Assembly: GCF_010119975.1 (NCBI RefSeq) | Contig: NZ_CP048222.1 | Coordinates: forward strand, 372,001-436,000 | DNA from: Rhodocytophaga rosea | Lineage (GTDB): Bacteria; Bacteroidota; Bacteroidia; Cytophagales; 172606-1 | Direction of reading: 5' to 3' | Length of the DNA: 64,000 bases | In this document: positions 3,249-29,846 of the stretch, piece by piece | Position numbering within the stretch: position 1 is the first letter of the stretch | How the letters are laid out: every line of letters starts with the position of its first letter | Notes under the pieces: model-generated | Told to the model about the DNA's origin: nothing | Seen by the model: only the letters and a program-made list of their open reading frames with translations | Database searches by the model: none | Translations under genes and position numbers: made by a program

Positions 3249-5885
<2,637 letters not shown>

Positions 5886-8058: not shown

Positions 8059-9870
8059 ATGTCATTTAATAGTTTCTCCCGCCAACACCTGGACTTTGTG
8101 CTCTACGAAGTACTTGGAATGGAAGTGATACTAGCTGATGCCTATTTCCATGGACACCATCGGGAAACGTTTGATCTCACCCTGGATACTGCTACTGAAA
8201 TTGCCGATACCTATTTGGCTCCTTCTTACAAATTAGCTGATAGAAAAGAGCCGGAATTAGTGGAAGGGCAGGTAAAAGTACATCCGGCAGTTCATCAATA
8301 CTATCAGGCCTATGTGCAGTCTGGATTATTATCAGCTACATTTCCGGAAATGTGTGGTGGTCAGCAGCTTCCAAAAACCATAGCGGCAGGGGTTCAATAT
8401 ATTCTGGCAGCAGCCAATAACAGCTTTGTCATGTTTACCGACCTGGTGAAAGGAGTAGCGAATGTTATTCTCCGGTTCGGAAATGTTGAACAAAAAAACA
8501 CCTATCTTCCCAAACTATTATCCGGTGAATGGGCCGCTACCATGTGCCTGACTGAAACCCAGGCTGGCAGTTCACTTTCTGATATTACTACCTGCGCTAT
8601 ACCTGTGGAAGATGGCATATTCCGGATCACAGGTCAAAAGATTTTCATTTCGGCAGGCGACCATGATATTACCGAGAATATTGTGCATCTGGTATTGGCC
8701 AGAATTGCTGGAGCACCAGCTGGTACCAAAGGTATTTCCCTGTTCATAGTTCTCAAAAAACAGATAAATAACAAGGAAAAATGGCAAGATAATGATGTAG
8801 CCTCTATTGGCATAATCCACAAAATGGGACAGAAAGCAACACCGGCCATGCATCTTTCCTTTGGCGGCAACAATAATTGTTTAGGCTATCTGCTGGGTGA
8901 AGCGAATCAGGGCTTACAATATATGTTCCAGCTGATGAATGCGTTCCGGCTGGAAGTAGGATTGATGGGCGTATCAGTGGCCACCCATGCGTATTATACT
9001 TCGCTGCAATATGCCATAGAACGCACCCAGGGCAGAAGAACCAATGCCAAAGCAGCGAATACCCTAGCAGTTCCTATTATTCAACATCCGGATGTACGCA
9101 GAATGTTATTGAGCCAGAAAGCATTTACGGAAGGTACGCTTGCCTTTATTCTCCAATGCTACCAGTATATGGATATGCAGAAGATTAGTAAAGAAGCAGC
9201 ACAGAAAAAACATTACCAGGATCTGCTGGAACTGCTCACTCCGGTTGCCAAAACCTATGGTGCAGAAAGTGGAAATGCTTCCATCCATAATGCCTTACAA
9301 GTATTAGGTGGCTATGGGTACACGACTGACTTCCCGTTGGAGCAAATGGCCAGAGATGCCAGAATTTTTTCTATCTACGAAGGAACAACAGGTATTCAGT
9401 CCATCGCACTATTAGGGCGGCAAATCGCTCAAAATAATGGAAAATCCATAGATCTCTGGTTAGAACAAGTATTGCCTGATATCGAAAAGGCATCTGAACT
9501 GGCTACCTTACAAACTTATGCAAACCGGTTAAAACGAGAAATTGAAAACTTGCAGTCTGTAACGAGCCATCTGTTAAATATAAGATCAGAGAAAGGTGAT
9601 GAAGTTTTTCTGGCAGATGCCACCCTCTATATGCAGCTGTTTGGAATCCTCAACATCGCCTGGCAGTTGCTCAGAATGGCAACTATTGCCGAAAAAGCAT
9701 TATATAATAGCTCTTTAGCTGAAGACAAAAAGCTATTCTACCGTTCGAAGGTCAGCACCATGAAATTCTTTTTTACCTACGAATTAACCAAGTGTACCGG
9801 GCTTTGCCAGCAACTGATGAATGAAGAACAACTAACGATTTACAATGAACAGGAAGAAATGCTAATCTGA
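8059..9870 (+). CDS. Acyl-CoA dehydrogenase, long (about 600-residue) class
   Basis: 603 residues, the length of the extended acyl-CoA dehydrogenase class that includes DmdC, with an extra C-terminal helical domain beyond about 465. Visible features are the FAD/substrate segment MCLTETQAGSSLSD near 162-175, the PLEQMARDARIFSIYEGTTG motif placing the likely catalytic glutamate at about 441, and a GGYGYTTDF motif before it. It would introduce a 2,3-double bond into an acyl-CoA using FAD. As first gene of a cluster with an aryl-CoA synthetase, it may oxidise dihydro-hydroxycinnamoyl-CoA to the cinnamoyl-CoA, as HcaD does in Acinetobacter; that specificity is inferred. Confidence 0.87.
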   Translation: MSFNSFSRQHLDFVLYEVLGMEVILADAYFHGHHRETFDLTLDTATEIADTYLAPSYKLADRKEPELVEGQVKVHPAVHQYYQAYVQSGLLSATFPEMCGGQQLPKTIAAGVQYILAAANNSFVMFTDLVKGVANVILRFGNVEQKNTYLPKLLSGEWAATMCLTETQAGSSLSDITTCAIPVEDGIFRITGQKIFISAGDHDITENIVHLVLARIAGAPAGTKGISLFIVLKKQINNKEKWQDNDVASIGIIHKMGQKATPAMHLSFGGNNNCLGYLLGEANQGLQYMFQLMNAFRLEVGLMGVSVATHAYYTSLQYAIERTQGRRTNAKAANTLAVPIIQHPDVRRMLLSQKAFTEGTLAFILQCYQYMDMQKISKEAAQKKHYQDLLELLTPVAKTYGAESGNASIHNALQVLGGYGYTTDFPLEQMARDARIFSIYEGTTGIQSIALLGRQIAQNNGKSIDLWLEQVLPDIEKASELATLQTYANRLKREIENLQSVTSHLLNIRSEKGDEVFLADATLYMQLFGILNIAWQLLRMATIAEKALYNSSLAEDKKLFYRSKVSTMKFFFTYELTKCTGLCQQLMNEEQLTIYNEQEEMLI

Positions 9871-9877
9871 ACCCTTT

Positions 9878-11230
9878 ATGAAACAGACCTTAACTTTACC
9901 GGTAGAGAAGGCAGAAAAATCATCCTTAAGATATGGATGGTATGTGGTGGGTTTGCTCACCCTGGCCAATATTTCTTCCTTTATCGACCGGCAGATTCTG
10001 AGTTTGCTGGTTGGCCCTATCAAGCGGGATATGCACTTATCCGATTTTGAAGTGAGTTTACTGATGGGTTTGAGTTTTGCCTTGTTTTATACCCTTTTCG
10101 GAATTATTATTGGGCGCCTGGCCGACCAGTACAGCCGCCGAAATATCATCATTGGGGGTATTACTTTATGGAGCCTGATGACAGTGCTATGTGGTGGAGT
10201 CCGGACGTATACTCAATTCTTTCTGGCAAGAATGGGCGTAGGCGTAGGAGAAGCCACTTTGTCTCCATCGGCCTATTCCATGATCGCCGATTATTTTCCT
10301 AAAAACCGGCTGGCTACGGCTTTAAGTGTATATTCCTCCGGCATTTTTCTGGGTTCTGGCATTGCCTTACTCATTGGCGCTGGCATTATTGCTACCTTAC
10401 CTACAGAAGGTACGGTGGAAGTTCCTGTACTAGGTTCGCTGTATCCCTGGCAATTACTGTTTGTCTATATCGGTCTTCCAGGCTTACTACTTTCCCTGTT
10501 GATGCTGACGGTTAAAGAGCCCATCCGCAAGAATCTGTTAAAAAAAGAAGGAAAGATTGTTGAAGTAAATTTACCGGAAGCGCTCACCATTATTTTTAGG
10601 CATAAATGGGCTTACTTGTCCATTTGTTTTGGTCTGGCTTTTACAGCTTTGGTCAACTATGGATGCAGTGCCTGGGTACCTACCTTTTTAGTACGTACCT
10701 ATGGATGGAATATGCCGCAGGCAGGTCTGGGATATGGGATTGTACTGGTAACTTCTTCGGGTTTGGGGGTTTTATGGGGTGGTTGGTATGCCGATAAGCT
10801 CGTAAAAGAAGGCCGCACAGATGGCCGTCTCCGGGTAGGTTTGATCTCGATGATCGCCGTAACCCTGATGAGTTTTGCGCCGCTCATGCCACAAGCCTGG
10901 CTATCTCTGGCCGTGCTGTTTGTTCCTTCATTTTTCACTGCTTCCAACATAGGCGCTGCCGCTTCAGCCGTCCAGGAGCTAATGCCAAACCAGGTAAGAG
11001 TACTGGCCTCCGCCATATTCCTGTTTATTCTGAACCTGATCGGTATGGGCCTAGGGCCTACTTCGGTGGCGGCGTTTACTGATTTTGTTTTTAAAGATGA
11101 AAGTGCAATTCGCTATTCATTGTCGCTGCTGTTATTGATTGGGGGTGTAGTAGGTACGGTCTGTTTCTGGTCTGGCCTCAAACCTTATCGAAATGCCATC
11201 GAATTGAATAAAGGCCAGCTTTCCGAATAA
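9878..11230 (+). CDS. MFS transporter, probable aromatic acid uptake carrier
   Basis: 450 residues with twelve predicted membrane helices and a loop 2-3 MFS motif (IGRLADQYSRRNIIIGG near 78-95). The opening YGWYVVGLLTLANISSFIDR resembles spinster-like and ACS-type carriers. It starts 7 bases after the acyl-CoA dehydrogenase stop and 16 bases before the crotonase gene, so it is almost certainly cotranscribed with them. I infer import of the hydroxycinnamate or phenylpropanoid that feeds the operon. It is distinct from the PcaK-like carrier at 20.5 kb, so the region encodes two aromatic-acid carriers. Confidence 0.83.
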   Translation: MKQTLTLPVEKAEKSSLRYGWYVVGLLTLANISSFIDRQILSLLVGPIKRDMHLSDFEVSLLMGLSFALFYTLFGIIIGRLADQYSRRNIIIGGITLWSLMTVLCGGVRTYTQFFLARMGVGVGEATLSPSAYSMIADYFPKNRLATALSVYSSGIFLGSGIALLIGAGIIATLPTEGTVEVPVLGSLYPWQLLFVYIGLPGLLLSLLMLTVKEPIRKNLLKKEGKIVEVNLPEALTIIFRHKWAYLSICFGLAFTALVNYGCSAWVPTFLVRTYGWNMPQAGLGYGIVLVTSSGLGVLWGGWYADKLVKEGRTDGRLRVGLISMIAVTLMSFAPLMPQAWLSLAVLFVPSFFTASNIGAAASAVQELMPNQVRVLASAIFLFILNLIGMGLGPTSVAAFTDFVFKDESAIRYSLSLLLLIGGVVGTVCFWSGLKPYRNAIELNKGQLSE

Positions 11231-11246
11231 ATTAAGTAGATAAGAT

Positions 11247-12032
11247 ATGTTATTAAAATCCACGCCCAATACCATCCAGGCAGAAACCATTGGAGAGATT
11301 CTTACCCTCAGGATCAGCCGGATAGAAAAACGCAATGCCTTGAATGATGAAACCATTTTGGGCTTAGAAAGACTATTTTCCTGCATGCCTGAAGGGATCA
11401 AATGTGCCGTGATCTATGGAGAAGGCAAGCATTTTAGTGCCGGTCTGGATCTTTCGGAATTGAAAGAACGGGATGTGGTGGAAGGCATTTTTCATTCCCG
11501 CATGTGGCACCAGGCACTGGATAAAATACAGTTTGGCAAAGTACCAGTGGTAGCCGTATTGCATGGGGCTGTGGTAGGTGGCGGACTCGAACTGGCCAGT
11601 GCCGCACATATCCGGGTGGCAGAATCTTCGGCCTTTTATGCCTTACCGGAAGGGCAGCGGGGAATTTTTGTAGGCGGCGGTGCTTCTGTCCGGATACCTA
11701 AATTAATTGGCATGGCCCGGATGCAGGACATGATGTTTACAGGGCGGGTGTATACAGCGGAAGAAGGGTATACGATCGGTTTATCACAATATCTGGTAGA
11801 GGAAGGCAAAGGTTTTGAAAAGGCCATGGAACTGGCCCGTAAGATCAGTTCTAATGCTGCCATGACCAACTATGCCCTGATGCATGTATTGCCAAAAATT
11901 ACAGAATCTTCCCAGGACCAGGGGTTAATGATGGAATCGCTGATGGCGGCTATCGCCCAGAGTTCGCCGGAAGCCAAAGAAAGATTGAGGTTATTTTTAG
12001 ATGGGAAAGCTAAAAAAGTAGGAGAACAATGA
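11247..12032 (+). CDS. Crotonase-family enoyl-CoA hydratase (hydroxycinnamoyl-CoA type)
   Basis: 261 residues of the crotonase fold. The two oxyanion-hole segments are GKHFSAGLDLSELK at about 58-71 and HGAVVGGGLELASAAHIRVA at about 108-127. The PEGQRGIFVGGGASVRIPKL stretch resembles crotonases found beside feruloyl-CoA synthetases in proteobacterial hydroxycinnamate clusters. Its end overlaps the CoA synthetase start by 4 bases (ATGA), indicating translational coupling. It should hydrate p-coumaroyl- or feruloyl-CoA to the 3-hydroxyacyl-CoA. Whether it also cleaves to the aldehyde, as HCHL/Ech does, cannot be told; the HSD10-like dehydrogenase downstream favours the non-lyase route. Confidence 0.82.
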   Translation: MLLKSTPNTIQAETIGEILTLRISRIEKRNALNDETILGLERLFSCMPEGIKCAVIYGEGKHFSAGLDLSELKERDVVEGIFHSRMWHQALDKIQFGKVPVVAVLHGAVVGGGLELASAAHIRVAESSAFYALPEGQRGIFVGGGASVRIPKLIGMARMQDMMFTGRVYTAEEGYTIGLSQYLVEEGKGFEKAMELARKISSNAAMTNYALMHVLPKITESSQDQGLMMESLMAAIAQSSPEAKERLRLFLDGKAKKVGEQ

Positions 12033-13888
12033 TTGTGCAACATCATTTAAAAGACACGCCTTACCGGAAAGTACCTTTCGGCGAAGTTTCTATAGATAAA
12101 ACTGTAAAGGCAGATGGAAGCCTGTTGCTAAAATCCAATATTCCCCTGCAAGCTCATCCCCACCGCATGACCGAACGGCTGCTTCACTGGGCTGAACACC
12201 GGTCCAACCAGGTATTTATCGGGCAGCGGGATACGGCAGGCATCTGGTGGACCTATACCTACCAGCAAACACTGACTATTGTTAGAAGTATTGCCCAGTA
12301 CCTCCTCAATGCCAACTTATCTGAAAAGAGACCTATTGCGATTTTATCAGAAAACAGTGTGGAACATGCAATGGTTGCACTGGCAGCTTTACATGTAGGT
12401 ATTCCCTATTCTCCCATTACACCTGCCTATTCCCTGCGGTCGAAGGATTTTGAAAAACTCAAACATGTTATCAACCTCTTAACTCCAGGACTGATTTTCG
12501 TTTCAGACGGAAAAAAGTATGAACGGGCGCTTCAGGCGGTTGCCGGAGATGCTGAGGTAGTGATTGTAAATTACCGGCCGGATAACATTCATGCTACGCT
12601 GTACCAGGATATAGTAAAAACTACACCCACCGTTTCCGTTGACAGGGCTTATCAGGCTATTATGCCGGAAACCATAGCCAAAATATTGTTTACGTCAGGG
12701 TCTACTGGTTTACCAAAAGGGGTGATTAATACGCATGGGAATATTTCTACCAACTGGCAGCAGATCACCCAGACGTTTCCTTTTATGGCCGATGCGTTTG
12801 AAATTATCGACTGGCTGCCCTGGAACCATACCTTTGGAGGGAATCACAACTTTGGTCTTACCTTATATAATGGTGGCACAATGTACCTGGATGAAGGCAA
12901 TCCTACTCCTGCCGGAATCAAAGCTACAGTTGCCAACCTACGGGAAATTTCTCCTACCGTTTACTTCAATGTACCCAAAGGGTTTGGTGAATTAATAGGG
13001 TATTTGCGGAAAGATCGGTCTTTGCGGGAGAAGTTCTTTAGCCGCTTACAATTACTTTTTTATGCCGGTGCCGGTATGCCCCAGCATGTATGGGATGCGC
13101 TGGAAAGTTTAGCCCTGGAAACAGTTGGAGAACGTATTATTATCGCTACCGGACTGGGTTGTACAGAATCCAGTCCTTCTGCGCTTTTTTCTACCAGGCC
13201 TGATGGTTTCGCCGGATTACTTGGTCTGCCAGTACCTGGTTTGGAACTGAAGCTGGTACCGGTAGATGGCAAACTGGAAGCCAGGTACAAAGGCGGAAAT
13301 ATTACCCAAGGCTACTGGAAAAATGAGCAGGCCTCCAGGCAAGCGTATGACGAAGAAGGATTCTACAAATCGGGTGATGCGCTCAAGTTTGTCGATCCGG
13401 ATCATGTGGAAGAAGGCTTACTGTTTGATGGCCGCCTGGCTGAAGATTTTAAATTAGACACCGGCACCTGGGTAAATGTAGGAAAACTCCGGACAGACCT
13501 TCTGGCTGCCGGAAATGGATTGATCCATGATGCTGTGATTACCGGCCATGACCAGCAGTTTGTTGGAGCTATTATTTTCCCGGATATAGAAGTTTGTAAA
13601 AAGCAGCTGAGATTATCATCCGATACAAACCTACAGGAGATAGTGGCAAATCCAAGTTTTAAACAGGTAATGCATGGGGTGTTGACCGTACTGGCAAAGA
13701 GAAATACCGGAAGTACTACCCTTATCAAAAGAGCGTTACTTGCCGATTTCACCCTATCGCTGGATGCCGGAGAGCTAACAGACAAAGGTTCTGTCAATCA
13801 GAAACAGGTGTTGAAAAATTACCCGGAATGCATTCGGTTGCTGTATCAACCAGCCTTGACTTCCTTGGTACTAGAAGCAAACCCATAA
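12029..13888 (+). CDS. fcs: Feruloyl-/4-coumaroyl-CoA synthetase (AMP-dependent)
   Basis: 619 residues, the usual size for feruloyl-CoA synthases and longer than plant 4CL. The AMP-binding P-loop ILFTSGSTGLPKGV lies near residues 218-231, and the adenylate motif GLGCTESSPSA near 380. Upstream, SENSVEHAMVALAALHVGIP and the following PYSPITPAYSLRSKDFEKLK are the family-typical stretches that separate it from generic acyl-CoA ligases. It would activate ferulate, p-coumarate or caffeate with ATP and CoA, committing it to side-chain removal. Start overlaps the crotonase stop. PobA downstream argues that p-coumarate, giving 4-hydroxybenzoate, is an important substrate. Confidence 0.85.
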   Translation: MIVQHHLKDTPYRKVPFGEVSIDKTVKADGSLLLKSNIPLQAHPHRMTERLLHWAEHRSNQVFIGQRDTAGIWWTYTYQQTLTIVRSIAQYLLNANLSEKRPIAILSENSVEHAMVALAALHVGIPYSPITPAYSLRSKDFEKLKHVINLLTPGLIFVSDGKKYERALQAVAGDAEVVIVNYRPDNIHATLYQDIVKTTPTVSVDRAYQAIMPETIAKILFTSGSTGLPKGVINTHGNISTNWQQITQTFPFMADAFEIIDWLPWNHTFGGNHNFGLTLYNGGTMYLDEGNPTPAGIKATVANLREISPTVYFNVPKGFGELIGYLRKDRSLREKFFSRLQLLFYAGAGMPQHVWDALESLALETVGERIIIATGLGCTESSPSALFSTRPDGFAGLLGLPVPGLELKLVPVDGKLEARYKGGNITQGYWKNEQASRQAYDEEGFYKSGDALKFVDPDHVEEGLLFDGRLAEDFKLDTGTWVNVGKLRTDLLAAGNGLIHDAVITGHDQQFVGAIIFPDIEVCKKQLRLSSDTNLQEIVANPSFKQVMHGVLTVLAKRNTGSTTLIKRALLADFTLSLDAGELTDKGSVNQKQVLKNYPECIRLLYQPALTSLVLEANP

Positions 13889-13901
13889 TTTCCTGAAACC
13901 T

Positions 13902-15011
13902 ATGAAAAACCTGCTACTCGCTATAATCTTAATCGTATTTGCCTGGAATGCAAAAGCCCAGACGGCAAAAATAGATTCCGGAACAATTAATGGGGCTCGT
14001 TACAAAATCATTTTCCCGCCCAACTGGAAAAACAAACTGGTGATGTATGCGCATGGCTATGAGTTTATGAACAGTCCTGCTATGCTCGATAATCCCAATC
14101 TGGCCAAGGGTTTTGCTCCTTTTCTGGACAGAGGGTTTGCGGTGGCGGCTTCTGCCTACCGGATACAAGGATATGCCCTGCCGGAAGGAATTGAAGATAC
14201 AGAAGCATTGAGAAAACATTTTGTATCGAAGTATGGCAAGCCAGACACTACGTTTATGGTAGGCCATTCCATGGGTGGGGGCATTTCTTTAGGAATCAGT
14301 GAAAAATATGCGGCCAATTACCAGGGAGCTTTACCGCTTTGTCCGCTCTCCAGCAATCCGTATATCCAGACCAGGAAGGAGTTTGACCTAATCGCCGTTT
14401 TTAATGTATTGTTTCCTGAGCAAATTTCCCCGCTTTCTGAGATTATGAAAACAGGGAGTTCTGAGAAATCAGTGCAGCAGGTTTTTGCCAGTGCAGAACC
14501 TCTATACAAACATCTACAAAAAGATTCCCTGCTGGCTAAACAGCTAGCACAAACGTTTGAACTCAAACTCAAAGACCTGCCTTTTGCTGTGTTATTTGGC
14601 GAAATGGTGTTGCGGGATCTGGTGAAAAAATCAGGGGGCAATCCGTTTGATAATACCAATACGTTGTACACCGGCTTTCCCGACGACTGGATGGTGAACC
14701 AAAAAGTGGAACGGTTGTCTGCCTCTCCCACCGCATTCCAGTTTCTCCAGAAAAATTACCGTACCGGGGAAATTTCCTTTCCGGTCGTGATGATGCACAC
14801 CACTTATGACCAGTTGATACCTGCTCAACTGGCGATAGGCAACTATGATATGATGGTCCGCCAGAAAGGCAAGGAAAAGTTTATGGTTGTAAAATACACC
14901 AATGGCCAGGGTCATTGCGAGTTTACACCAGAGCAAACAGGCTTAGCCTTCGATGAACTCCGCCAATGGGTAAAATCAGGAAAAAGGCCAAAATCAGGCA
15001 GTATTCAATAA
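13902..15011 (+). CDS. Secreted alpha/beta hydrolase (esterase-like)
   Basis: 369 residues beginning with a clear signal peptide (MKNLLLAIILIVFAWNAKAQ, cleavage after residue 20). The nucleophile elbow GHSMGG puts the catalytic serine at 123. A YDQLIPAQ loop and GQGHCEF near the C-terminus offer the Asp and His of the triad. It starts 13 bases after the CoA synthetase stop. A periplasmic or outer-surface esterase in this operon could release hydroxycinnamates from plant esters before import; that role is inference. It does not show a tannase or CE1 signature, so a family-level substrate cannot be given. Confidence 0.75.
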   Translation: MKNLLLAIILIVFAWNAKAQTAKIDSGTINGARYKIIFPPNWKNKLVMYAHGYEFMNSPAMLDNPNLAKGFAPFLDRGFAVAASAYRIQGYALPEGIEDTEALRKHFVSKYGKPDTTFMVGHSMGGGISLGISEKYAANYQGALPLCPLSSNPYIQTRKEFDLIAVFNVLFPEQISPLSEIMKTGSSEKSVQQVFASAEPLYKHLQKDSLLAKQLAQTFELKLKDLPFAVLFGEMVLRDLVKKSGGNPFDNTNTLYTGFPDDWMVNQKVERLSASPTAFQFLQKNYRTGEISFPVVMMHTTYDQLIPAQLAIGNYDMMVRQKGKEKFMVVKYTNGQGHCEFTPEQTGLAFDELRQWVKSGKRPKSGSIQ

Positions 15012-15049
15012 AACAGTTTTAACTAAATAATTAATCTATCACATACACT

Positions 15050-16165
15050 ATGCACAAAATTAAACCTCCATTCAGAGCTGATCATGTAGGAAGTTTGTTG
15101 AGAACCCAGGAAGTAAAAGAAAACCGTCTGAAATGGAAAAAAGGGCTCATTTCGACAGAGGAACTTCGTGAAATAGAAAACAGAGCCATTGCTGAAACGG
15201 TGAAAAAGATGGAATCTATTGGCATGAAGTCTATCACTGATGGGGAATTCAGAAGGGATTATTTTCACCTGGATTTTTTGAAAGAACTGGCCGGCGTAAC
15301 CGTAACAGGTGGCATCGAAGCCAATCCAAATGCCAAAGTAGCCCAGGATGGGTTTACACCTCCTACACTCAGTGTGACCGGCAAGATCAAACATGTAAAA
15401 GATATTCAGGTGGCTGATTTTAATTTCTTAAAGTCTGTAGTGAGTCAAACGCCAAAAGTATCCATCCCCTCTCCCACCATGATTCACTTCCGGGGTGGAC
15501 GAAAAGCGATTGACATACATTCTTATCCGGACATGGATGAATTTTTCCATGACCTGAGTGAAGCCTACAAACAGGAAATCAATGCGCTGTATCAGGCTGG
15601 TTGCCGGTATATCCAGTTAGATGATACCAATCTCGCCTATTTATGTGATCCAAAAATGAGAGCAGCGGCCAAAGAACGTGGTGAAGACCCCAATGAACTG
15701 CCCAGAACCTACGCAGCGCTTATCAACTCCGTAATCGATGGCCGTCCGGATGATCTGACAGTAGGCATACACTTGTGCCGGGGAAATTACCGCAGTACCT
15801 GGTTTGCCGAAGGTGGTTACGAACCAGTGGCAGAAGTACTCTTTAATAATATCAATGTGGATGCATATTTTCTGGAATATGACGATGAACGAAGCGGTGA
15901 TTTTGCTCCGCTCCGGTTTGTACCGAAAAATAAATTAGTGGTGCTGGGCATTATTTCTTCCAAGTTCAGGCAACTGGAAGACATGGATGACCTGCGGGAG
16001 CGAATAGATGAGGCTTCCAAATACATGCCTTTAGAAAATATGTGCGTAAGCCCTCAATGTGGTTTCAGCAGCACCCATCATGGCAACGATCTCACGCATG
16101 ATGACCAGTGGCGGAAAATGGAACTGGTAGTAAAAACAGCTACTAAAGTATGGGGCGAGAGTTAA
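15050..16165 (+). CDS. MetE C-terminal-domain-like zinc methyltransferase/thiol transferase
   Basis: 371 residues equal to one catalytic barrel of cobalamin-independent methionine synthase, without the MetE N-terminal half. The zinc site looks complete: HLC gives His241 and Cys243, Glu276 lies in FLEYDDE, and Cys337 is in VSPQCGF. The opening PFRADHVGSLLRT is typical of the single-domain YxjG/epoxyalkane-CoM-transferase-like group. Lying between the operon's esterase and its dehydrogenase, it may have a pathway role, for example handling methyl groups from methoxylated aromatics, or adding a thiol. No classical O-demethylase gene is present in the window. It may equally be ordinary methionine metabolism; the reaction is not established. 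Confidence 0.8.
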   Translation: MHKIKPPFRADHVGSLLRTQEVKENRLKWKKGLISTEELREIENRAIAETVKKMESIGMKSITDGEFRRDYFHLDFLKELAGVTVTGGIEANPNAKVAQDGFTPPTLSVTGKIKHVKDIQVADFNFLKSVVSQTPKVSIPSPTMIHFRGGRKAIDIHSYPDMDEFFHDLSEAYKQEINALYQAGCRYIQLDDTNLAYLCDPKMRAAAKERGEDPNELPRTYAALINSVIDGRPDDLTVGIHLCRGNYRSTWFAEGGYEPVAEVLFNNINVDAYFLEYDDERSGDFAPLRFVPKNKLVVLGIISSKFRQLEDMDDLRERIDEASKYMPLENMCVSPQCGFSSTHHGNDLTHDDQWRKMELVVKTATKVWGES

Positions 16166-16258: not shown

Positions 16259-17020
16259 ATGAATGTACAAGGAAAAGCAGCAATAGTTACCGGGGGCGCT
16301 TCTGGCTTAGGCAAAGCTACGGCACTGAAACTGGCCGCTTCCGGAGCTAAGGTGGCTATTATAGATGTTAATCAGGAATTGGCTCAAGAAGTAGCTCAGG
16401 AGATTGGTGGAATAGCGCTTAAAGCAAATGTTGCAGATGCGGATGAAGCACAAAAAGCTATTTTGCAAGCTAGGCAAAAACACGGGACAGCCAGTATATT
16501 AGTGAATTGTGCAGGCATTGGTACCTCCGGTAGGATTGTAAGTAAACAAGGGCCTATGCCCTTATCAGCATTTGAGAAAATTATCCAGGTGAACCTGATT
16601 GGCAGTTTTAACATGATGCGTTTAGCGGTAGCTGATATGATACCTGCTGAACTCAATGAAGATGGGGAACGGGGTGTAATTATCTCAACAGCTTCTGTGG
16701 CAGCCTATGAAGGCCAGATTGGTCAGGCGGCGTATGCTGCTTCCAAAGGGGGAATTGTGAGTTTAACCTTGCCAGCTGCCAGGGAATTTGCCCAGTTTGG
16801 CATCCGGGTACTGGCTATTGCTCCCGGCTTGTTTGAAACGCCACTGCTGGAAGGCTTAAATGAAGAAGCCAGACAAAGTTTGTCCACTGCTATTCCTTTT
16901 CCCAAAAGATTAGGCAAGGCAAAAGAATATGCCGGCTTGGTATTGCACCTGATTGAAAACAGTTACCTGAATGGCGAGGTCATCCGCATAGATGGGGCTT
17001 TACGCATGCAAGCTAAGTAG
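16259..17020 (+). CDS. HSD10-type short-chain 3-hydroxyacyl-CoA dehydrogenase
   Basis: 253 residues from the ATG at 16259; an upstream TTG at 16244 is in frame but weaker. It is a classical SDR with TGGASGLGKA for NAD binding near 12-21, and the Ser and YxxxK catalytic residues in STASVAAYEGQIGQAAYAAS. The sequence around GERGVIISTASVAAYEGQIG and the ending GEVIRIDGALRM match the type 2 3-hydroxyacyl-CoA dehydrogenase (HSD17B10) group rather than FabG. With the synthetase and hydratase it completes a CoA-dependent beta-oxidation of the side chain, as in Agrobacterium fabrum ferulate degradation. A family-B repeat follows the stop. Confidence 0.85.
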   Translation: MNVQGKAAIVTGGASGLGKATALKLAASGAKVAIIDVNQELAQEVAQEIGGIALKANVADADEAQKAILQARQKHGTASILVNCAGIGTSGRIVSKQGPMPLSAFEKIIQVNLIGSFNMMRLAVADMIPAELNEDGERGVIISTASVAAYEGQIGQAAYAASKGGIVSLTLPAAREFAQFGIRVLAIAPGLFETPLLEGLNEEARQSLSTAIPFPKRLGKAKEYAGLVLHLIENSYLNGEVIRIDGALRMQAK

Positions 17021-17224: not shown

Positions 17225-18100
17225 ATGAATCTAAATGAAATAATTGCTATAGATGTTCATACCCATGCCGAAGTATCGTGCAAACAACCGCACGACGATT
17301 ACCGGCCTGAGTTTGACGAAGCATTCGCCAGATATTTTAAAACCACGCACCGGCCTACCATTCAGGAAACCATAGAATATTACCGAAGCCTGAAAATGGC
17401 CCTGGTGATGTTTACCATCGATTCGGAATATGAACTGGGACGCAGACGTATCCCCAATGAAGAAGTAGCAGAAGCAGCGATGGCCAATCCGGATGTGCTA
17501 ATTCCCTTTGCCAGCATCGATCCGCACAAAGGCCGCATGGGAGCCAGGGAGGCAAAAAGATTAATTGAAGAATTTGGCGTAAAAGGATTTAAGTTCCATC
17601 CGACTGTACAAGGGTTTTATCCCAACGACCGCATGGCGTATCACCTGTATGAAGTGATTGCCGGAGCAGGTCTTCCGATGCTCTTTCATAGCGGACATTC
17701 TGGTTTTGGAAGCGGTGTCCGGGGAGGCGGCAGTTTACGGCTGGCTTATTCTAATCCCATTTACCTGGATGATGTAGCGATCGATTTTCCGGATGTACCC
17801 ATTATCATTGCGCATCCTTCCTGGCCCTGGCAGGATGAAGCGCTCAGTGTATGCCTGCATAAACCCAATGTATATATTGACCTGTCCGGGTGGAGCCCCA
17901 AATACTTTCCGGCTCAGTTAGTACAATATGCCAACACCCAGCTGAAACACAAAATGCTATTCGGAACAGATTTTCCTTTGATCACACCTGAAAGATGGAT
18001 GAAAGATTTTGAGCAGGCAGGTTTTAAAGAAGAAGTTAAACCATTAATTCTGAAAGAAAATGCCATTAAAATGCTCAACCTGACGTCTGCTGGGAAATGA
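17225..18100 (+). CDS. Cytosolic amidohydrolase-2 family enzyme (COG2159-like)
   Basis: 291 residues, TIM-barrel metal-dependent hydrolase/decarboxylase of the ACMSD/resorcylate-decarboxylase superfamily. Metal ligands are visible as HTH (His12, His14) near the N-terminus, FHSG mid-chain, AHPSWPW, and the Asp of FGTDFP. There is no signal peptide. It lies directly after the beta-oxidation genes, which otherwise lack a step to cleave the aryl-3-ketoacyl-CoA to the benzoate. It is therefore a candidate for that missing hydrolytic or decarboxylating step, but no substrate can be read from sequence. A second, exported amidohydrolase follows 66 bases downstream. Confidence 0.8.
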   Translation: MNLNEIIAIDVHTHAEVSCKQPHDDYRPEFDEAFARYFKTTHRPTIQETIEYYRSLKMALVMFTIDSEYELGRRRIPNEEVAEAAMANPDVLIPFASIDPHKGRMGAREAKRLIEEFGVKGFKFHPTVQGFYPNDRMAYHLYEVIAGAGLPMLFHSGHSGFGSGVRGGGSLRLAYSNPIYLDDVAIDFPDVPIIIAHPSWPWQDEALSVCLHKPNVYIDLSGWSPKYFPAQLVQYANTQLKHKMLFGTDFPLITPERWMKDFEQAGFKEEVKPLILKENAIKMLNLTSAGK

Positions 18101-19340: not shown

Positions 19341-19448
19341 AGTAATTGCGCACAGTGTATAATTTGATTGATGCACTAATAAACTATTAATGTATAGATG
19401 ATCCGTAAAAATATTATGCAGCCTATTTCAAAACTACACCAATACCTC

Positions 19449-21788: not shown

Positions 21789-21797
21789 CCCTATACC

Positions 21798-22976: not shown

Positions 22977-22977
22977 C

Positions 22978-23766
22978 ATGCAAATTATAGACATCAACGG
23001 ACATGTGATTCATTACCAATGGCAGAATGCAGGGAAAACGCACACATTTTTGTTCATTAACTCCTTAGGCACGGATTACCGGATATGGACAGAAGTAGCC
23101 CATTCGTTAAAAGAATATGGGAATATTTTGCTGTTCGATAAACGAGGACATGGCTTATCAGATGTAGTTCCCGACACGAATGGATTAAATGATTTTGTTG
23201 ACGATACACAGGCATTACTTAACAAATTAAACATTGAGAAATGCATCATCATTGGCCTTTCGGTAGGTGGCATGATTGCCCAGGTGCTGGGCAGCCGGAT
23301 ACCGCAAAAAACAGAAAAACTGGTATTGTGTGATACCCGCCATAAAATTGGCAATCCTCCGATCTGGAACGACAGGATTAAAGCTGTTGAGAAAGGTGGA
23401 TTATCCAGAATATCGGATGGCGTGATGCAACGGTGGTTTTCGGAAAACTTCAGAAAACAGCAACCAATCAAAGTAGCTGGCTACAAAAATATGCTGGAAC
23501 GTACACCTGTGCTGGGGTATATCAAAACCTGTGAAGCCATCCGGGATGCAGACCTTACGGAAATAGCCAGCCGTATACAGATACCTACGTTATGTGTGGT
23601 AGGTTCTGAAGATAAATCTACAACCGTGAATGAAGTCAGAAATTTGTCGGAATTGATTGCAGGCAGCCGGTTTGAAATTATTGAAGGCTCCGGCCATATC
23701 CCCTGTGTAGATAATCCACAAGTGTTGGCTGAGTTGATACTCAACTTTACCGGCTTACATAGCTAA
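22978..23766 (+). CDS. pcaD: 3-oxoadipate enol-lactonase
   Basis: 262 residues of the alpha/beta-hydrolase fold. The oxyanion region NSLGTDYRIWTEV near 29-41 and the nucleophile elbow GLSVGG near 95-100 are the PcaD signatures, with the acid in VGSEDKST and the histidine in SGHIPCVDNP near the end. It hydrolyses 3-oxoadipate enol-lactone to 3-oxoadipate in the protocatechuate branch of the beta-ketoadipate pathway. Its start lies one base after the pobA stop. A family-B repeat separates it from pcaC, so the pca genes are probably in two transcripts. Confidence 0.9.
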   Translation: MQIIDINGHVIHYQWQNAGKTHTFLFINSLGTDYRIWTEVAHSLKEYGNILLFDKRGHGLSDVVPDTNGLNDFVDDTQALLNKLNIEKCIIIGLSVGGMIAQVLGSRIPQKTEKLVLCDTRHKIGNPPIWNDRIKAVEKGGLSRISDGVMQRWFSENFRKQQPIKVAGYKNMLERTPVLGYIKTCEAIRDADLTEIASRIQIPTLCVVGSEDKSTTVNEVRNLSELIAGSRFEIIEGSGHIPCVDNPQVLAELILNFTGLHS

Positions 23767-24144
23767 ATGACTTTAGAAAAACCCAGTTCAGTGTTGAAAT
23801 AATAGTAAGTCTTTTGAAGAAACTTCTACCAATAACTACTTTGAAATGATTTAAGATGTTGTGGACTTAAAGGCTATAATGATAATCGTACAAGAAACCT
23901 CAACAATAAATCAAACAAATATTCCATGCGCGCAGGGACAAATGAAAAGCGGGGTGAGTGTTGGCCTTAAGCGGAGAAGCATTTTTCATTTTGCCCTTTT
24001 GTTTTGTTACTTTTATTTTGGGCAAGCAAAATAAAAGTAAAGACGGCCGAAGTCTATCAATCACCTCTCTATTAATAAAGAAAACAGTTGACCGCAATCT
24101 GATAAATCAATTCAACTTAATGATTTTTTCTTAACACAACATAA
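23767..24144. other. 378-bp gap between pcaD and pcaC
   Basis: No gene is seen. The gap holds a family-B repeat at 23922-24053, whose end is a perfect 14-bp hairpin that could end the pcaK-pobA-pcaD transcript. The last 90 bases, AT-rich, probably carry the promoter for pcaC onward. Confidence 0.6.
23922..24053 (+). repeat. Dispersed repeat family B, copy 2 (14-bp hairpin)
   Basis: Shares ttccatgcg, agcggggtgag and gagaagcatt with copy 1. Its end is a perfect 14-bp inverted repeat, ttacttttattttg (24007-24020) and caaaataaaagtaa (24027-24040), followed by agacggccgaa. The hairpin arms are identical to those of the reversed copy at 58541-58574. Confidence 0.72.
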
Positions 24145-24543
24145 ATGACTAACGATCTATATACACAAGGCATGCAAACCCGCCGGGCAGTGTTAGGCGA
24201 CGCCCATGTAGACAAAGCCGAAGCCAACAAGACAGACTTTGACCAGGATTTCCAGGAATTCATTACCAATACGGCCTGGGGAGCCATCTGGAGCCGGCCC
24301 GGATTGACCAAACGGGAACGAAGTCTGATCACGATTGCGCTGATGACCGCCTTGAAGCACGAAGGAGAACTGGAACTGCATCTGAATGCATCTAAAAATA
24401 CCGGTGCTTCTATTGAAGATATCAAAGAAGTGCTGCTTCATACGGCTGTATATGCCGGCGTACCGGCAGTAAACCATGCCATGAAAATTGCAAAAAAAGT
24501 ATTTTTTGAAACGGATAAAACGCATACCAATGACTCAAAATAA
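24145..24543 (+). CDS. pcaC: 4-carboxymuconolactone decarboxylase
   Basis: 132 residues, the normal size for stand-alone PcaC and not fused to PcaD as in some actinomycetes. The family sequence is clear: TAWGAIWSRPGLTKRERSLI at 47-66, then a catalytic-site helix region around HEGELELHLNASKNTGAS and EVLLHTAVYAGVPA. It decarboxylates 4-carboxymuconolactone to the 3-oxoadipate enol-lactone. Its last 14 bases overlap the start of pcaH, so the two are translationally coupled, and it heads the second pca transcript. Confidence 0.92.
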   Translation: MTNDLYTQGMQTRRAVLGDAHVDKAEANKTDFDQDFQEFITNTAWGAIWSRPGLTKRERSLITIALMTALKHEGELELHLNASKNTGASIEDIKEVLLHTAVYAGVPAVNHAMKIAKKVFFETDKTHTNDSK

Positions 24544-25228
24544 ACGGGATTGGGCCATACAGCCGCCTTATCTGTATCCGGAATATAAATCTACCGTATT
24601 ACGGGCACCTACCAAACCTCTGATTCCGCTCAAACATACACTGAGCGAACTCACCGGACCGGTTTTTGGCCATGATGCGATCCGGAAATACGACAATGAC
24701 CTGACCCTGAATGCCCGCAAAAATGGAGAGCCGCTGGGCGAACGGATTGTAGTAGCCGGTACGGTAACCGATGTAAACGGCAAGCCCATCCCAAATACTC
24801 TGGTAGAAATCTGGCAGGCAAATGCAGCAGGCAGATATATCCATAAAGTAGACCAGCATGATGCGCCTCTGGACCCAAATTTTCTGGGCGCAGGTCGCTG
24901 CCTCACCGACAGTGAAGGCAATTATAAATTTTATACCATCAAACCAGGTGCGTATCCCTGGGGCAATCATCCGAAAGCTTTCCGGCCTAATCACATTCAT
25001 TTTTCTCTGTTTGGCAATCAGATTACTTCCCGGCTGGTTACCCAGATGTATTTTCCTGGCGATCCGCTGATGGATTATGATCCGGTTTTGCAAGGCGTAC
25101 CAGAAAAATACCGGCATCTATTAATATCCAAATTTAATCTTGATATCACGGAATCAGATTTTGCATTGGGCTTCCAGTTTGATATTGTGTTGCGAGGAAA
25201 TCGTGAAACCCCTTTTGAAAACAAATGA
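24530..25228 (+). CDS. pcaH: Protocatechuate 3,4-dioxygenase beta subunit
   Basis: 232 residues from the ATG at 24530, the usual size; an upstream in-frame TTG would run inside pcaC and is rejected. The iron ligands can be assigned as two tyrosines (in GRYIHKVDQHDAP and GAYPWGNHP) and the two histidines of RPNHIHFSLFG. NTLVEIWQANAAGRY is the conserved intradiol dioxygenase strand. The enzyme opens the protocatechuate ring between the hydroxyls using Fe(III) and O2, giving 3-carboxy-cis,cis-muconate. The stop overlaps the pcaG start (ATGA). Confidence 0.93.
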   Translation: MTQNKRDWAIQPPYLYPEYKSTVLRAPTKPLIPLKHTLSELTGPVFGHDAIRKYDNDLTLNARKNGEPLGERIVVAGTVTDVNGKPIPNTLVEIWQANAAGRYIHKVDQHDAPLDPNFLGAGRCLTDSEGNYKFYTIKPGAYPWGNHPKAFRPNHIHFSLFGNQITSRLVTQMYFPGDPLMDYDPVLQGVPEKYRHLLISKFNLDITESDFALGFQFDIVLRGNRETPFENK

Positions 25229-25803
25229 GCATGGATACTTTTTTACAAACTCCCTCCCAGACGGTAGGCCCCTATTTCGCTTATGGGCTTACCCCTGAGC
25301 AATACCTATATGATTACTCCAGCATTGCTAATGGAAATCTGATTAAAAGCGAACTAGTAACAGGAGAGCGTATTACTATTTTAGGACAGGTGTGGGATGG
25401 TGCCGGAAAACTGATACCAGATGCCATGATCGAAATCTGGCAGGCAGATGCAGAAGGCAAGTATTTAAATGATCCACAATTGTTTCCTGGATTTGGCCGC
25501 CTGGGTACCGGTACACATCCTCATAATAAAGTGGAATTTCACACCATCAAACCCGGTTCCGTGAATGGACAAGCCCCCCACATCAATGTGATTGTGTTTA
25601 TGCGGGGTTTACTGGTACATGCCTATACCCGGCTGTATTTTTCTGATGAAGAAGCTAACTTAACTGATGCAGTTCTCAACGCTGTCCCGCATGCGAGAAG
25701 GTCAACGTTACTAGCGTTGAGAACAGACACGCATGGTAAAGTGGAATATCACTTTAATATTTATATGCAGGGAGAGAATGAAACCGTTTTTTTCGATCTA
25801 TAA
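25225..25803 (+). CDS. pcaG: Protocatechuate 3,4-dioxygenase alpha subunit
   Basis: 192 residues, matching known PcaG. It opens with [17 protein letters not shown], the alpha-subunit signature, and contains [17 protein letters not shown] and the [20 protein letters not shown] strand. As in other alpha subunits, the iron-ligand histidine pair seen in PcaH is not preserved (here only HIN), so this chain is structural and shapes the active site. The start overlaps the pcaH stop; a second ATG two codons later is possible. Confidence 0.92.
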
Positions 25804-25811
25804 ACAAACCC

Positions 25812-27161
25812 ATGAAACAAATACCACAAATTACGGCAAGTGAAGCAGCAGCGCTGGTTAAAGATGATGACACTCTATTAGGAGGCGGTTTTGGCATGAC
25901 CGGCAATCCAGTTCATTTGTTACACGCCTTAGCCCAAACCAGTACAAAGAACTTAACATTCATCGGAAATAATGTAGGAGAACCCGGCTTAGGTGGGGGA
26001 AGATTACTCAGAAATGGCCAGATCAGGAAAATGATCGGATCGTTTTTTACCAGCAATCCGGATGCAGTAAAAGCAGCCCAGTCCGGGCAGGTGGAATATG
26101 AATTGCTGCCACAGGGTACACTCGCAGAGGCCATCCGGGCAGGAGGAGCCGGCATTGGCGGATTTTATACCCCCACTTCTGCCGGAACCTTGATGGCCCA
26201 AGGACGGGAAACTAAACTCATTGATGGCGTAGAGCAGGTATTCATAAAAGGTATCAGGGCCAATGTGGCATTTATCCGGGCCTGGAAAGCAGATACAGCC
26301 GGCAACCTCACCTACCGGATGACTGAGCAGAACTTCAATAAAGCCATGGCTACTGCCGCCGACCTGGTGATCGCCGAAGTGGAAGAAATTGTGCCGGTGG
26401 GTGCCATAGATCCTAATTTTGTTCATACGCCTGGTTGTTTTGTAGATTATCTGGTGCAGGCATCTATCACACTGGAAGATTTAGGAACTTCTGCCTCATT
26501 GAATACCGCTAGAAAATCAGATGAAGTGCGGAACAATATGGCGAAACGGGCATTCCAGGAACTAAAAAAAGGCGATATGGTCAACCTCGGAATTGGTATT
26601 CCTACGCTGGTAGCAGATTTTATTAAGCCGGAAGATGGCATTATTCTGCATACAGAAAACGGCATGCTGGGCGTAGGTCCTTCGCCGGCTGATGGAGGTG
26701 GAGCTTTGGATTATCCGGTGAATGCCGGAAAGATACCTGTAACTGCGCTTCCTGGCAGCAGTTATTTCGATAGTTCTGATTCTTTCGCTATGATCCGGGG
26801 CAAGCATGTGGACGTTGCAGTAATGGGAGGTTTGCAGGTAGATGAGGAAGCTAATCTGGCCAACTGGGCAGTTCCTGGAAAGCCCTTATTAGGTGTAGGC
26901 GGTGCCATGGATCTGGCTGCCGGAGCCAGAAAATTAATTATTGTGATGAACCATACGGATAGCGATGGTTCGAGTAAAATAGTACCCCTGTGTACCTTGC
27001 CTTTAACAGCAAAAAAAGCAGTAGATCTGGTAATCACAGAATTAGCAGTTTTTAGTTTTGAACAAGGAAAATTAACCTTAATTGAACTGATGCCAGGTGC
27101 TACCCTCGAAGAAGTACGGTCCAAAACAAAGGCAACATTTGTAGAGAAACTGAGTGCCTGA
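25812..27161 (+). CDS. pcaIJ: 3-oxoadipate CoA-transferase, fused alpha and beta subunits
   Basis: 449 residues combining both family I CoA-transferase subunits in one chain. The alpha part (about 1-225) has [10 protein letters not shown] and [13 protein letters not shown]; the beta part (about 235-449) has [13 protein letters not shown] and the catalytic glutamate in [13 protein letters not shown]. Most pathway homologues are two proteins (PcaI and PcaJ); fused forms resemble animal SCOT. It transfers CoA from succinyl-CoA to 3-oxoadipate. The context between pcaG and pcaF supports 3-oxoadipate over acetoacetate, but the sequence alone does not decide. Confidence 0.88.
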
Positions 27162-27195
27162 ATGGCTGGTAGAGAATACTAAAAAGATTATAATC

Positions 27196-28401
27196 ATGGA
27201 AGCATATATAGTAGATGGTATACGTACCCCGATCGGAAATTTTGGAGGCAGTCTTTCTTCTGTCCGGATAGATGATCTGGCAACACTGGTGATCAAAGAA
27301 TTAGTGCGGCGCAATCCACAGATTCCCACTGACAGCATTGATGATGTGATCCTGGGGTGCCATAACCAGGCCGGAGAAGATAACCGGAACGTAGCCAGGA
27401 TGGCTTTGCTGCTGGCTGGTTTACCCACTTCTGTACCAGGAGAAACTGTAAACCGGCTGTGTGCTTCTGGCATGTCGGCTGTAGTAAATGCGGCATATAC
27501 CATAAAAGCCGGTGAAGGAGATGTATTTATAGCTGGCGGCGTAGAAAACATGACCAGAGGTCCCTGGGTGATCTCTAAAACTTCCAAGTCCTTCGGCAAC
27601 GATGCCCAGATGTTTGATTCCAGTTTTGGATGGCGTTTTGTAAACCCAAAGATGCACGAAATGTATGGTACGGATGCCATGGGTGTTACTGCAGAAAATC
27701 TGGTAGATATCTATAAAATCAGCCGGGAAGATCAGGATCAATTTGCCTATCATTCACATATGCGGGCGGCCAAAGCACGGAATAACGGAAGATTCGCCGA
27801 AGAGATAGTTCCGGTTGAAATCACAGTAAAAAAGAACGAAACCACTTTGTTTGCAGCCGATGAATTTATCAAAGATAATACAACGCTGGAAAAACTATCA
27901 CAGCTCAAACCTGTTTTCCGCAAAGAAGGCGGATCAGTTACAGCCGGAAATTCCTCTGGCATTAATGATGGTGCTATTGCCTTATACATTGTATCTGAAC
28001 AAGCCCTGAAAAAATATAATCTTACGCCCAAAGCACGAATTGTAACCTCAGCCGTAGTAGGTGTAGAGCCACGTATTATGGGGATTGGTCCGGTAGGTGC
28101 CACGCAGAAAGCATTAAAAAAAGCAGGTATGCGATTAGAAGATATGGATATAATCGAGTTTAATGAAGCCTTTGCTGCACAAACCCTTGCCTGTATCCGG
28201 GAATTGGGCTTATCCGCTGATGATCCCCGCATCAACCCCAATGGAGGAGCTATTGCCTTAGGCCATCCCCTGGGCATGTCTGGGGCAAGGATTATTTATA
28301 CTGCCGCTCTTGAACTCCACAAACAGAACAAACGCTATGCACTTGCCACCTTATGTGTAGGCGTAGGCCAGGGGTATGCAACTATTATAGAAAGAGTTTA
28401 A
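27196..28401 (+). CDS. pcaF: 3-oxoadipyl-CoA thiolase
   Basis: 401 residues from the ATG at 27196; an upstream GTG lies inside the CoA-transferase and is rejected. The nucleophilic cysteine is Cys89 in NRLCASGMSAVVNAAY, and the C-terminal motifs NGGAIALGHPLGMSGAR and CVGVGQGYA supply the catalytic His and second Cys. The DGIRTPIGNFGGSLSSVRID start is typical of PcaF/PaaJ. It splits 3-oxoadipyl-CoA into succinyl-CoA and acetyl-CoA, ending the pathway. It might also cleave aryl-3-ketoacyl-CoA from the upstream cluster, but that is speculation. Confidence 0.9.
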   Translation: MEAYIVDGIRTPIGNFGGSLSSVRIDDLATLVIKELVRRNPQIPTDSIDDVILGCHNQAGEDNRNVARMALLLAGLPTSVPGETVNRLCASGMSAVVNAAYTIKAGEGDVFIAGGVENMTRGPWVISKTSKSFGNDAQMFDSSFGWRFVNPKMHEMYGTDAMGVTAENLVDIYKISREDQDQFAYHSHMRAAKARNNGRFAEEIVPVEITVKKNETTLFAADEFIKDNTTLEKLSQLKPVFRKEGGSVTAGNSSGINDGAIALYIVSEQALKKYNLTPKARIVTSAVVGVEPRIMGIGPVGATQKALKKAGMRLEDMDIIEFNEAFAAQTLACIRELGLSADDPRINPNGGAIALGHPLGMSGARIIYTAALELHKQNKRYALATLCVGVGQGYATIIERV

Positions 28402-28506
28402 ATTGTTGTTGTTTGTTCGTAGTTGTTAGCAGAATAGTTGTAAATCAATATTTTGCTAACTGACAAATTCACAGCATAAGTTTTTAAATAGTATCAACTA
28501 TATTAT

Positions 28507-29846
28507 ATGCACCTATACCAAAGCATTTTCTATGATAGGCAAGTATCTTCGCTTTTTTCATCTGAGAAAGTGATCCAGTATATGCTTCGGTTTGAAGGGG
28601 CGCTTGCCCAGGCGCAAGCAAATCATCGCGTAATACCGGCAGCAGCGGCGTCCATTATAGAATCTGGTTGCAAGGCCGATACTATCAATATAGAACAGTT
28701 AATACAGGAGGCTGCTTTGGGTGGAAATGTAGCCATACCCTTGGTAAAACAGTTAACAGCTCGTGTAAAAGAGAAGAATTCAGAAGCGGCTAAATATGTA
28801 CACTTCGGTGCTACCAGCCAGGATGTGATTGATACCGCTTTGATGCTGCAACTGAAAGATGCCTTTATTATCATTTCAAAAAATCTGGAAAGGCTCATTG
28901 GGCAATTAGTCTCCCTGATGAGAGCGCATACATCCACGGTTATGATTGGGCGGTCATTTATGCAACAGGCAAGACCAATTACCTTTGGTTATAAAGTTGC
29001 CGGCTGGCTGGAACCCTTGCTCCGGTCTCAACAATCCATTCAGAAATTATTAACAAATGGATTTTTACTTCAATTAGGGGGGCAGTAGGCACATTGTCGG
29101 GTATGCCTGAACAAGGTATGAAGGTAAGTGACACCATGAGTGAATTATTACACTTAAACAATCCCGGGCGTTCCTGGCATACACAGCGGGACCATCTTGC
29201 TATTTTAGCCACTACTTTAGGTATTTTAACAGCAAACATCGGAAAAATTGCCAAAGACATTAGTTTGCTGATGCAGACCGAAATAGCCGAAGTAATGGAG
29301 CCTGCCGCAGCAGGGAAAGGAGGTTCTTCCACGATGCCGCACAAAAGAAATCCGGTGGGCTGTGTCGCCATCCTGGCAAATGCCACCCGTGTACCAGGAC
29401 TTACGGCAATTATGCTTTCGTGTATGCTACAAGATCATGAACGGGCAACCGGGCAATGGCATGCAGAATGGGAAACGATGGCTGAGATCGTACAACTTAC
29501 CGCCGGGTGTGTTACCAAAGCCATAGAAGTAACCGATGGATTGGAAGTGAGAACAGAGCAGATGTTACAGAATCTGGAACTGACCATGGGTTTAATTTAT
29601 GCGGAAAATGTATCGCTTGTCTTAGCTGATAAAATTGGAAAACAAGAGGCACATACCCTTATAGAAAAATACAGTAAAGAAGCCTTACAAAAAAACATGC
29701 ATTTGCGGGAGTTACTTGTATCAAAATCAGATATTACCCGGCAGTTGAGCATTGTTCAGATCGAAAGCCTGTTTGATCCTTCCACATCAACCGGTTTGTG
29801 TGAAGAGATTGTAAACCGGCTGCTGGAACAATTTTCAACCGATTAA
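28507..29846 (+). pseudogene. pcaB: 3-carboxy-cis,cis-muconate cycloisomerase, split by a frameshift
   Basis: Two adjacent frames together form one PcaB of about 446 residues, the normal length. The first (28507-29088) ends LLQLGGQ and stops; the second continues with SGMPEQGMKVSDTMSELLHL and holds the fumarase/aspartase-superfamily signature GGSSTMPHKRNPVG. The break is in a run of six G at 29077-29082. One extra G restores LQLGGAVGTLSGMPEQG, as expected for the family. PcaB converts carboxymuconate to 4-carboxymuconolactone, so the pathway needs it. A missing base in the assembly is more likely than a true mutation, since nothing else is damaged. Confidence 0.85.

Follow-up and report, generated by a model that had tools for sequence, protein, structure and literature searches.

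A predicted hydroxycinnamate catabolic island joined to pca and pob genes, with a conserved MetE-like gene, in Rhodocytophaga rosea and other Bacteroidota

A 64,000-nucleotide stretch of the Rhodocytophaga rosea genome (GCF_010119975.1, contig NZ_CP048222.1, positions 372,001 to 436,000; here called the window) contains at positions 8059-29846 an island that very probably constitutes a catabolic route for plant hydroxycinnamates, in which a side-chain module of the CouLMNO type is joined to pca and pob genes, the reactions being assigned from homology and gene context. Next to a divergently oriented LysR-type regulator, every gene from that of an acyl-coenzyme A (acyl-CoA) dehydrogenase to a split pcaB lies on one strand with small gaps, an arrangement far beyond chance. 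Hidden Markov model (HMM) searches, with the curated cut-offs of the models, and the translations of the window open reading frames (ORFs) placed the CoA synthetase, crotonase, HSD10-type short-chain dehydrogenase (SDR), acyl-CoA dehydrogenase, two major facilitator superfamily (MFS) carriers, PobA, PcaC, D, F, G and H and a fused PcaIJ where a preliminary description of this DNA had located them (Table 1). Three conserved parts of the cluster were absent from that description, namely an amidohydrolase, a MetE-like protein and the LysR regulator itself.

The CoA-dependent beta-oxidative deacetylation that had been proposed for the side chain gains support from the presence of its defining hydrolase. 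CouO is an amidohydrolase yielding an aromatic acid (PMC4737184), and HpeF, a hydroxyphenyl-beta-ketopropionyl-CoA hydrolase that is 95% identical to CouO, belongs to the hpe cluster, in an arrangement with biotin carboxylase, HAD phosphatase and CoA ligase (PMC9618137). The amidohydrolase of the island is 64% identical to a protein of Rhizobium sp. Q54 annotated as '4-hydroxyphenyl-beta-ketoacyl-CoA hydrolase', and 74% identical to the protein at the HpeF position in the carboxylation cluster of P. putida YC-AE1, which sits with a biotin carboxylase set, a HAD phosphatase and a CoA ligase; these two contexts have one beta-ketoacyl-CoA intermediate in common. Residues H12, H14, H155, H197 and D249 of the amidohydrolase, likely its metal ligands, are invariant in 14 sequences. 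The predicted synthetase, hydratase plus dehydrogenase, and amidohydrolase together represent each element of a CouLMNO-type pathway. In such a pathway, secreted esterases would release the acids from plant esters and the MFS carriers would take them up; the synthetase would form the CoA ester of the hydroxycinnamate, the crotonase would hydrate the side chain, the SDR would then oxidise the beta-hydroxyl, and the cytoplasmic amidohydrolase would split the beta-ketoacyl-CoA into acetyl-CoA and the free benzoic acid. The acyl-CoA dehydrogenase, with relatives at 54-70% identity in Bacteroidota loci and another in the feruloyl-CoA locus of Rhizobium sp. Q54, probably desaturates dihydro-hydroxycinnamoyl-CoA and would let dihydro-acids enter. 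PobA points, as had been suggested, to p-coumarate giving 4-hydroxybenzoate.

It could also be that the side chain is removed by a hydratase/lyase route, with the crotonase giving an aldehyde that is oxidised by an aldehyde dehydrogenase encoded elsewhere. In its favour, it would need no more than synthetase and crotonase, and the SDR is missing from some related clusters. Such a route is, however, highly improbable. The crotonase matches PRK08150 and not a lyase model, and it retains both glutamates (in GGGLELA and LPEGQRG) that we take to be hydratase-type. As the preliminary description had stated, no aldehyde dehydrogenase was found in region 8059-29846, and none was recurrent in the 33 Bacteroidota loci whose gene content was compared across the phylum. 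Moreover, the amidohydrolase, which would be of no use there, joins synthetase and crotonase in 30 of these loci. On the basis of the hydratase-type crotonase, the lack of an aldehyde dehydrogenase in the region and the conserved amidohydrolase, the aldehyde (vanillin) route was rejected.

Several points nevertheless weigh against the CouLMNO-type assignment joined to pca and pob. The pathway steps are predicted from the genes, and the CouO-type label of the amidohydrolase derives from the Rhizobium and P. putida homologues. The synthetase scores below the cut-off of PRK12582 (705 against 777 bits), as does PobA for TIGR02360 (475 bits against a strict cut-off of 538.7). In several related clusters, including the nearest ones (L127 and L128), the SDR gene is not near the module, so that another locus may encode the dehydrogenase, or another enzyme may stand in for it. 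Finally, the assembled pathway is interrupted, because pcaB is split and no second copy was found in the 8.98-Mb host genome (one contig), where the other matches were weak and belonged to the wider lyase superfamily.

The PcaB announced earlier is present as a PcaB-like sequence, but it is distributed over two ORFs that are out of frame with each other. At their junction the sequence is CAATTAGGGGGGCAGTAGGCAC, versus CAATTGGGTGGTGCAGTAGG at the matching codons of the intact relative L013, from which it follows that the GGGGGG run (about 29077-29082) has lost one base; this loss may be a true mutation or a sequencing error. With PcaB frameshifted, flux would halt at 3-carboxymuconate unless the latter is the case. 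That the cluster is a decaying relic, with a real frameshift in a strain that no longer grows on these acids, appears unlikely: a single-base loss without a second pcaB would fit such a history, as would the visibly decayed related cluster of genome G567, but the rest of the genes are intact, the two halves of pcaB are conserved and open apart from the frame change, and a one-base error in a run of six G is a common sequencing fault. PcaC and PcaD, separate in the window, are fused in one ORF in several relatives (L022:15855-16976, L124:2487-3608). As to the secreted hydrolases that had been described as interleaved with the catabolic genes, secreted esterases are indeed present, but the set also includes the core cytoplasmic amidohydrolase. 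Just downstream of the island (31365-36089, minus strand) are encoded a GDSL-type esterase, a PHB-depolymerase/feruloyl-esterase-like protein and a further exported hydrolase, which may release plant esters.

Table 1. Predicted genes of the island and of its divergent regulator, in window coordinates
Position	Strand	Assignment	Support
7011-7910	-	LysR-type regulator, divergent from cluster	LysR_substrate and HTH_1
8059-9870	+	Acyl-CoA dehydrogenase	Acyl-CoA dehydrogenase HMMs
9878-11230	+	MFS carrier 1	MFS HMMs; 58-83% identity in related clusters
11247-12032	+	Crotonase/enoyl-CoA hydratase, CouM-type role	PRK08150, 390 bits (cut-off 232)
12029-13888	+	Hydroxycinnamoyl/feruloyl-CoA synthetase, CouL-type role	PRK12582, E=7e-212, 705 bits; AMP-binding
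13902-15011	+	Alpha/beta hydrolase with signal peptide, presumed esterase	Hydrolase_4
15050-16165	+	MetE-like zinc methyltransferase-type protein, candidate vanillate O-demethylase	PRK06520, 470 bits (cut-off 313)
16259-17020	+	HSD10-type SDR, CouN-type role	SDR HMMs
17225-18100	+	Amidohydrolase, hydroxyphenyl-beta-ketoacyl-CoA hydrolase (CouO/HpeF type)	Amidohydro_2; cytoplasmic
18167-19192	+	Second Amidohydro_2 protein, with signal peptide	Amidohydro_2; 28% identity to first amidohydrolase
19398-20384	+	Secreted BD-FAE family esterase (feruloyl/acetylxylan type)	PF20434, 249 bits
20496-21788	+	PcaK-type aromatic acid/H+ symporter	TIGR00895, E=1.7e-107, 360 bits; PcaK model, 257 bits
21798-22976	+	PobA, 4-hydroxybenzoate 3-monooxygenase	PRK08243, 538 bits, over cut-off
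22978-23766	+	PcaD, 3-oxoadipate enol-lactonase	TIGR02427, 289 bits, over cut-off
24145-24543	+	PcaC, 4-carboxymuconolactone decarboxylase	TIGR02425, 186 bits, over cut-off
24530-25228	+	PcaH, protocatechuate 3,4-dioxygenase beta	TIGR02422, 344 bits, over cut-off
25225-25803	+	PcaG, protocatechuate 3,4-dioxygenase alpha	TIGR02423, 210 bits, over cut-off
25812-27161	+	Fused PcaI-PcaJ, 3-oxoadipate CoA-transferase, 449 amino acids	TIGR02429 at 8-217, TIGR02428 at 239-443, both over cut-off
27196-28401	+	PcaF, 3-oxoadipyl-CoA thiolase	TIGR02430, 613 bits, over cut-off
28507-29088	+	PcaB N-terminal part, ends at frameshift	PRK09053, E=1.5e-66, residues 2-192
29094-29846	+	PcaB C-terminal part, other frame	Lyase_1 and ADSL_C

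The MetE-like gene is the most unusual, and the novel, component of the cluster. Its product aligns over the full length with Listeria 1ypx, a solved structure, and the HxC and C motifs that provide the zinc ligands of T. maritima MetE are matched in the alignment by its residues H241, C243 and C337; E276 is likely the fourth ligand. An AlphaFold model was of low confidence (pLDDT 55) and was not used. Across Bacteroidota clusters the MetE-like proteins are 78-87% identical to that of the window, and thereby more conserved than the synthetase. Co-occurrence with the amidohydrolase, hereafter the hydrolase, was analysed in two samples. The hydrolase is present in 3 of 396 genomes taken across the phylum versus 43 of 151 genomes of the family that includes Runella and Fibrella; the same 3 genomes carry the MetE-like gene in the former sample, while in the latter it is found in 46, in 42 of them together with the hydrolase, with Fisher P values of ~1e-7 and ~1.6e-31, respectively, that ignore shared ancestry. 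Four family genomes carry the MetE-like gene only: G567, whose decayed cluster (L116) keeps a split MetE-like gene together with remnants of synthetase and hydrolase, G595, in which it is accompanied by further module genes at the end of a contig, and G482 and G516, in which it adjoins a PcaK-type carrier.

Ferulate is degraded to vanillate, which requires O-demethylation. The host genome yielded no VanA_C match and a single GCV_T match; since a tetrahydrofolate-dependent demethylase of the LigM/DesA type would call for a GCV_T-family protein besides GcvT, there is no LigM candidate. Ferulate would halt at vanillate unless this is demethylated, and the MetE-like protein is a candidate for the reaction. 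We tentatively propose, at rather less than even probability, that it replaces VanAB as vanillate O-demethylase in many Bacteroidota, acting as a zinc enzyme. A thiol, for example homocysteine, would accept the methyl group of vanillate or of a similar ring bearing a methoxyl group, and neither oxygen nor a corrinoid nor a folate enzyme of the LigM type would take part. Aryl methyl ethers are cleavable by thiolate, and a zinc-thiolate enzyme could therefore demethylate them. The clusters of Muricauda and Maribacter have vanAB inside and no MetE-like gene in the locus. In the family sample, G497 is the sole hydrolase-positive, MetE-like-negative genome (1 of 43) and also the only one with a strong VanA match (1.6e-47, the next being 5e-16), a coincidence with a chance of 1/43. 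In G497, vanAB is divergent from a regulator of the PcaR/PcaU/PobR family. Three other genomes, G595, G500 and a Jiulongibacter metagenome-assembled genome, carry an orthologue of it in divergent orientation to the MetE-like gene; these orthologues are ~69-73% identical to the G497 regulator and 83-85% among themselves. In all four genomes the palindrome TGTTCG-N5-CGAACAAA, with one mismatch in G497, is located between the regulator and vanAB or the MetE-like gene. Equally good palindromes appeared in 0 to 4 of 20,000 simulated spacers, and a scan of 2.4 Mb of fetched DNA found the motif elsewhere at one contig end only. The shared regulator and palindrome therefore indicate that the MetE-like gene occupies the vanAB slot under seemingly the same control.

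There is about an even chance that the MetE-like protein is instead an ordinary accessory methionine synthase, or a recycler of methyl groups from another demethylase, with no action on aromatics. It retains the MetE zinc-site motifs HxC and C, the genome encodes another, distant MetE-like protein, and Klebsiella plasmid relatives at ~50% identity are found by urea-transport and not aromatic genes. Plain methionine synthesis, on the other hand, would leave unexplained the tie of the gene to the hydroxycinnamate module in 42 of 43 genomes, and there also speak against it the decay of the gene along with the module in G567, its position by a PcaR/PcaU-type regulator with the operator that serves vanAB in G497, and a host without a VanA_C match and with one GCV_T gene only. 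The demethylase proposal has weak points as well, on account of which it is held tentatively. Few genomes bear vanAB, and the mutual exclusion of VanAB and the MetE-like protein does not reach significance when the 33 loci are taken by themselves; several clusters without the MetE-like gene may be without VanAB as well; the Klebsiella relative that was checked has no aromatic context; no methyl-disposal genes recur beside the MetE-like gene, and stoichiometric methyl transfer to homocysteine would burden the cell; and a cytochrome P450 encoded beside the MetE-like protein in L114, L115, L117 and L121 could be the demethylase there. In addition, the window showed no operator of the G497 type, so that its MetE-like gene is not under the G497-type regulator and is probably expressed along with the LysR-flanked cluster.

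The P450-associated MetE-like genes may form part of a separate aromatic module, and in three of those four loci MEDS/BTAD regulator-like and phosphoenolpyruvate (PEP)-synthase-like proteins accompany the pair. A PEP-synthase-like protein is also encoded at window positions 3252-5885 (1452 bits, against a cut-off of 999, with the rifamycin-inactivating phosphotransferase model), and relatives of it are encoded in L115 and L121 next to the MetE-like and P450 genes.

The preliminary description had singled out a compact version of the pathway in this phylum. It is present, but it is no one-strain rarity, and its uniqueness to this strain was rejected because the cluster recurs in many Bacteroidota families, with occurrences in Spirosoma, Runella, Emticicia, Chryseolinea, Maribacter, Saprospiraceae and others. 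The hydrolase is encoded in all 33 loci, crotonase and synthetase in 30 each, an exported alpha/beta hydrolase in 26, the SDR in 24, and a PcaK-type MFS carrier and the MetE-like protein in 21 each; pca and pob genes are found in many of them, adjoining the module for instance in L017, L022 and L028. Hydrolase relatives, located by a profile-guided scan of named genomes, show 75-90% identity in Bacteroidota and ~70% in Burkholderiales, in most cases with synthetase and crotonase alongside, and the synthetase-crotonase-SDR-amidohydrolase set is conserved in Bacteroidota and Betaproteobacteria. A betaproteobacterial relative, L045, stands at 54%.

The island is absent from the sampled genomes of the host's genus and family. 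A near-copy exists in G520/G493, and the nearest clusters, L127 and L128, have nearly the same gene order, the identities of L127 to the window being 93% for the hydrolase, 90% for the crotonase, 86% for the MetE-like protein and 74% for the synthetase. The LysR orthologue is found at the same place in both, with 77-78% identity (42-47% in other clusters). In the tree, L127 and L128 group with the window with support of 99/96; L130 has a long branch, which was disregarded as a probable artefact of translation. Horizontal acquisition would be the simplest reading for the island.

Other genes recur in these surroundings. A malonyl-CoA-synthetase-like ligase and a MadM malonate symporter subunit repeatedly adjoin hydroxycinnamate or MetE-like genes (L012, L015, L019, L020, L114-L116, L118, L127, L128), and a DUF3237 protein, often exported, recurs by the module (L022, L029, L118, L119, L143 and others) and was not seen in the window region. 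In the vicinity of some clusters are encoded a QuiC-like 3-dehydroshikimate dehydratase and an alcohol dehydrogenase of the zinc type (L121:8071-9918, L022:8999-9994), which suggest quinate or chlorogenate use.

Discussion of Bacteroidota usually centres on polysaccharide degradation. The open-licence literature searched yielded no description of this cluster in the phylum, and the eLignin survey has only two genera under Bacteroidetes (PMC6486533). Each metabolic step was already known, and what is new is their joining in Bacteroidota, members of which would recurrently carry a compact route from hydroxycinnamates to central metabolism joined to secreted esterases. If its proposed role is true, the MetE-like demethylase would represent a new chemistry for aryl methyl ethers, useful in lignin conversion.

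Among known systems, VanAB is a Rieske oxygenase releasing formaldehyde. It occurs in the Muricauda and Maribacter clusters and, next to the regulator described above, in G497, but the host, which has the MetE-like gene, yielded no match. Proteins of the PRK06520/YxjG type (Listeria 1ypx) match the MetE-like protein over the full length and have the same zinc-site motifs, but the Bacteroidota group is linked to aromatic catabolism whereas the checked Klebsiella plasmid relative is not. The hydroxycinnamate pathway of A. fabrum is of the Rhizobiaceae locus type. Plasmid 7 of Rhizobium sp. Q54 brings together an acyl-CoA dehydrogenase, an HSD10-type SDR, a feruloyl-CoA synthase, an enoyl-CoA hydratase and the beta-ketoacyl-CoA hydrolase, as the island does, but with a MarR regulator and a TRAP transporter and, in that stretch, without pca/pob or a MetE-like gene. 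The cou cluster of Rhodococcus jostii RHA1 (CouL, M, N, O) likewise combines a CoA ligase with an amidohydrolase-superfamily beta-ketoacyl-CoA hydrolase, CouO, to give the free aromatic acid (PMC4737184; PMC9618137), but it has the MarR-type CouR, whereas the window has a LysR regulator, MFS carriers, the MetE-like gene, secreted esterases and the joined pca/pob genes. The Hpe acetovanillone pathway of Rhodococcus rhodochrous GD02, to which a plasmid cluster of P. putida YC-AE1 is similar, uses a hydrolase on the same hydroxyphenyl-beta-ketopropionyl-CoA, but there this substrate is reached via phosphorylation and carboxylation and not by beta-oxidation.

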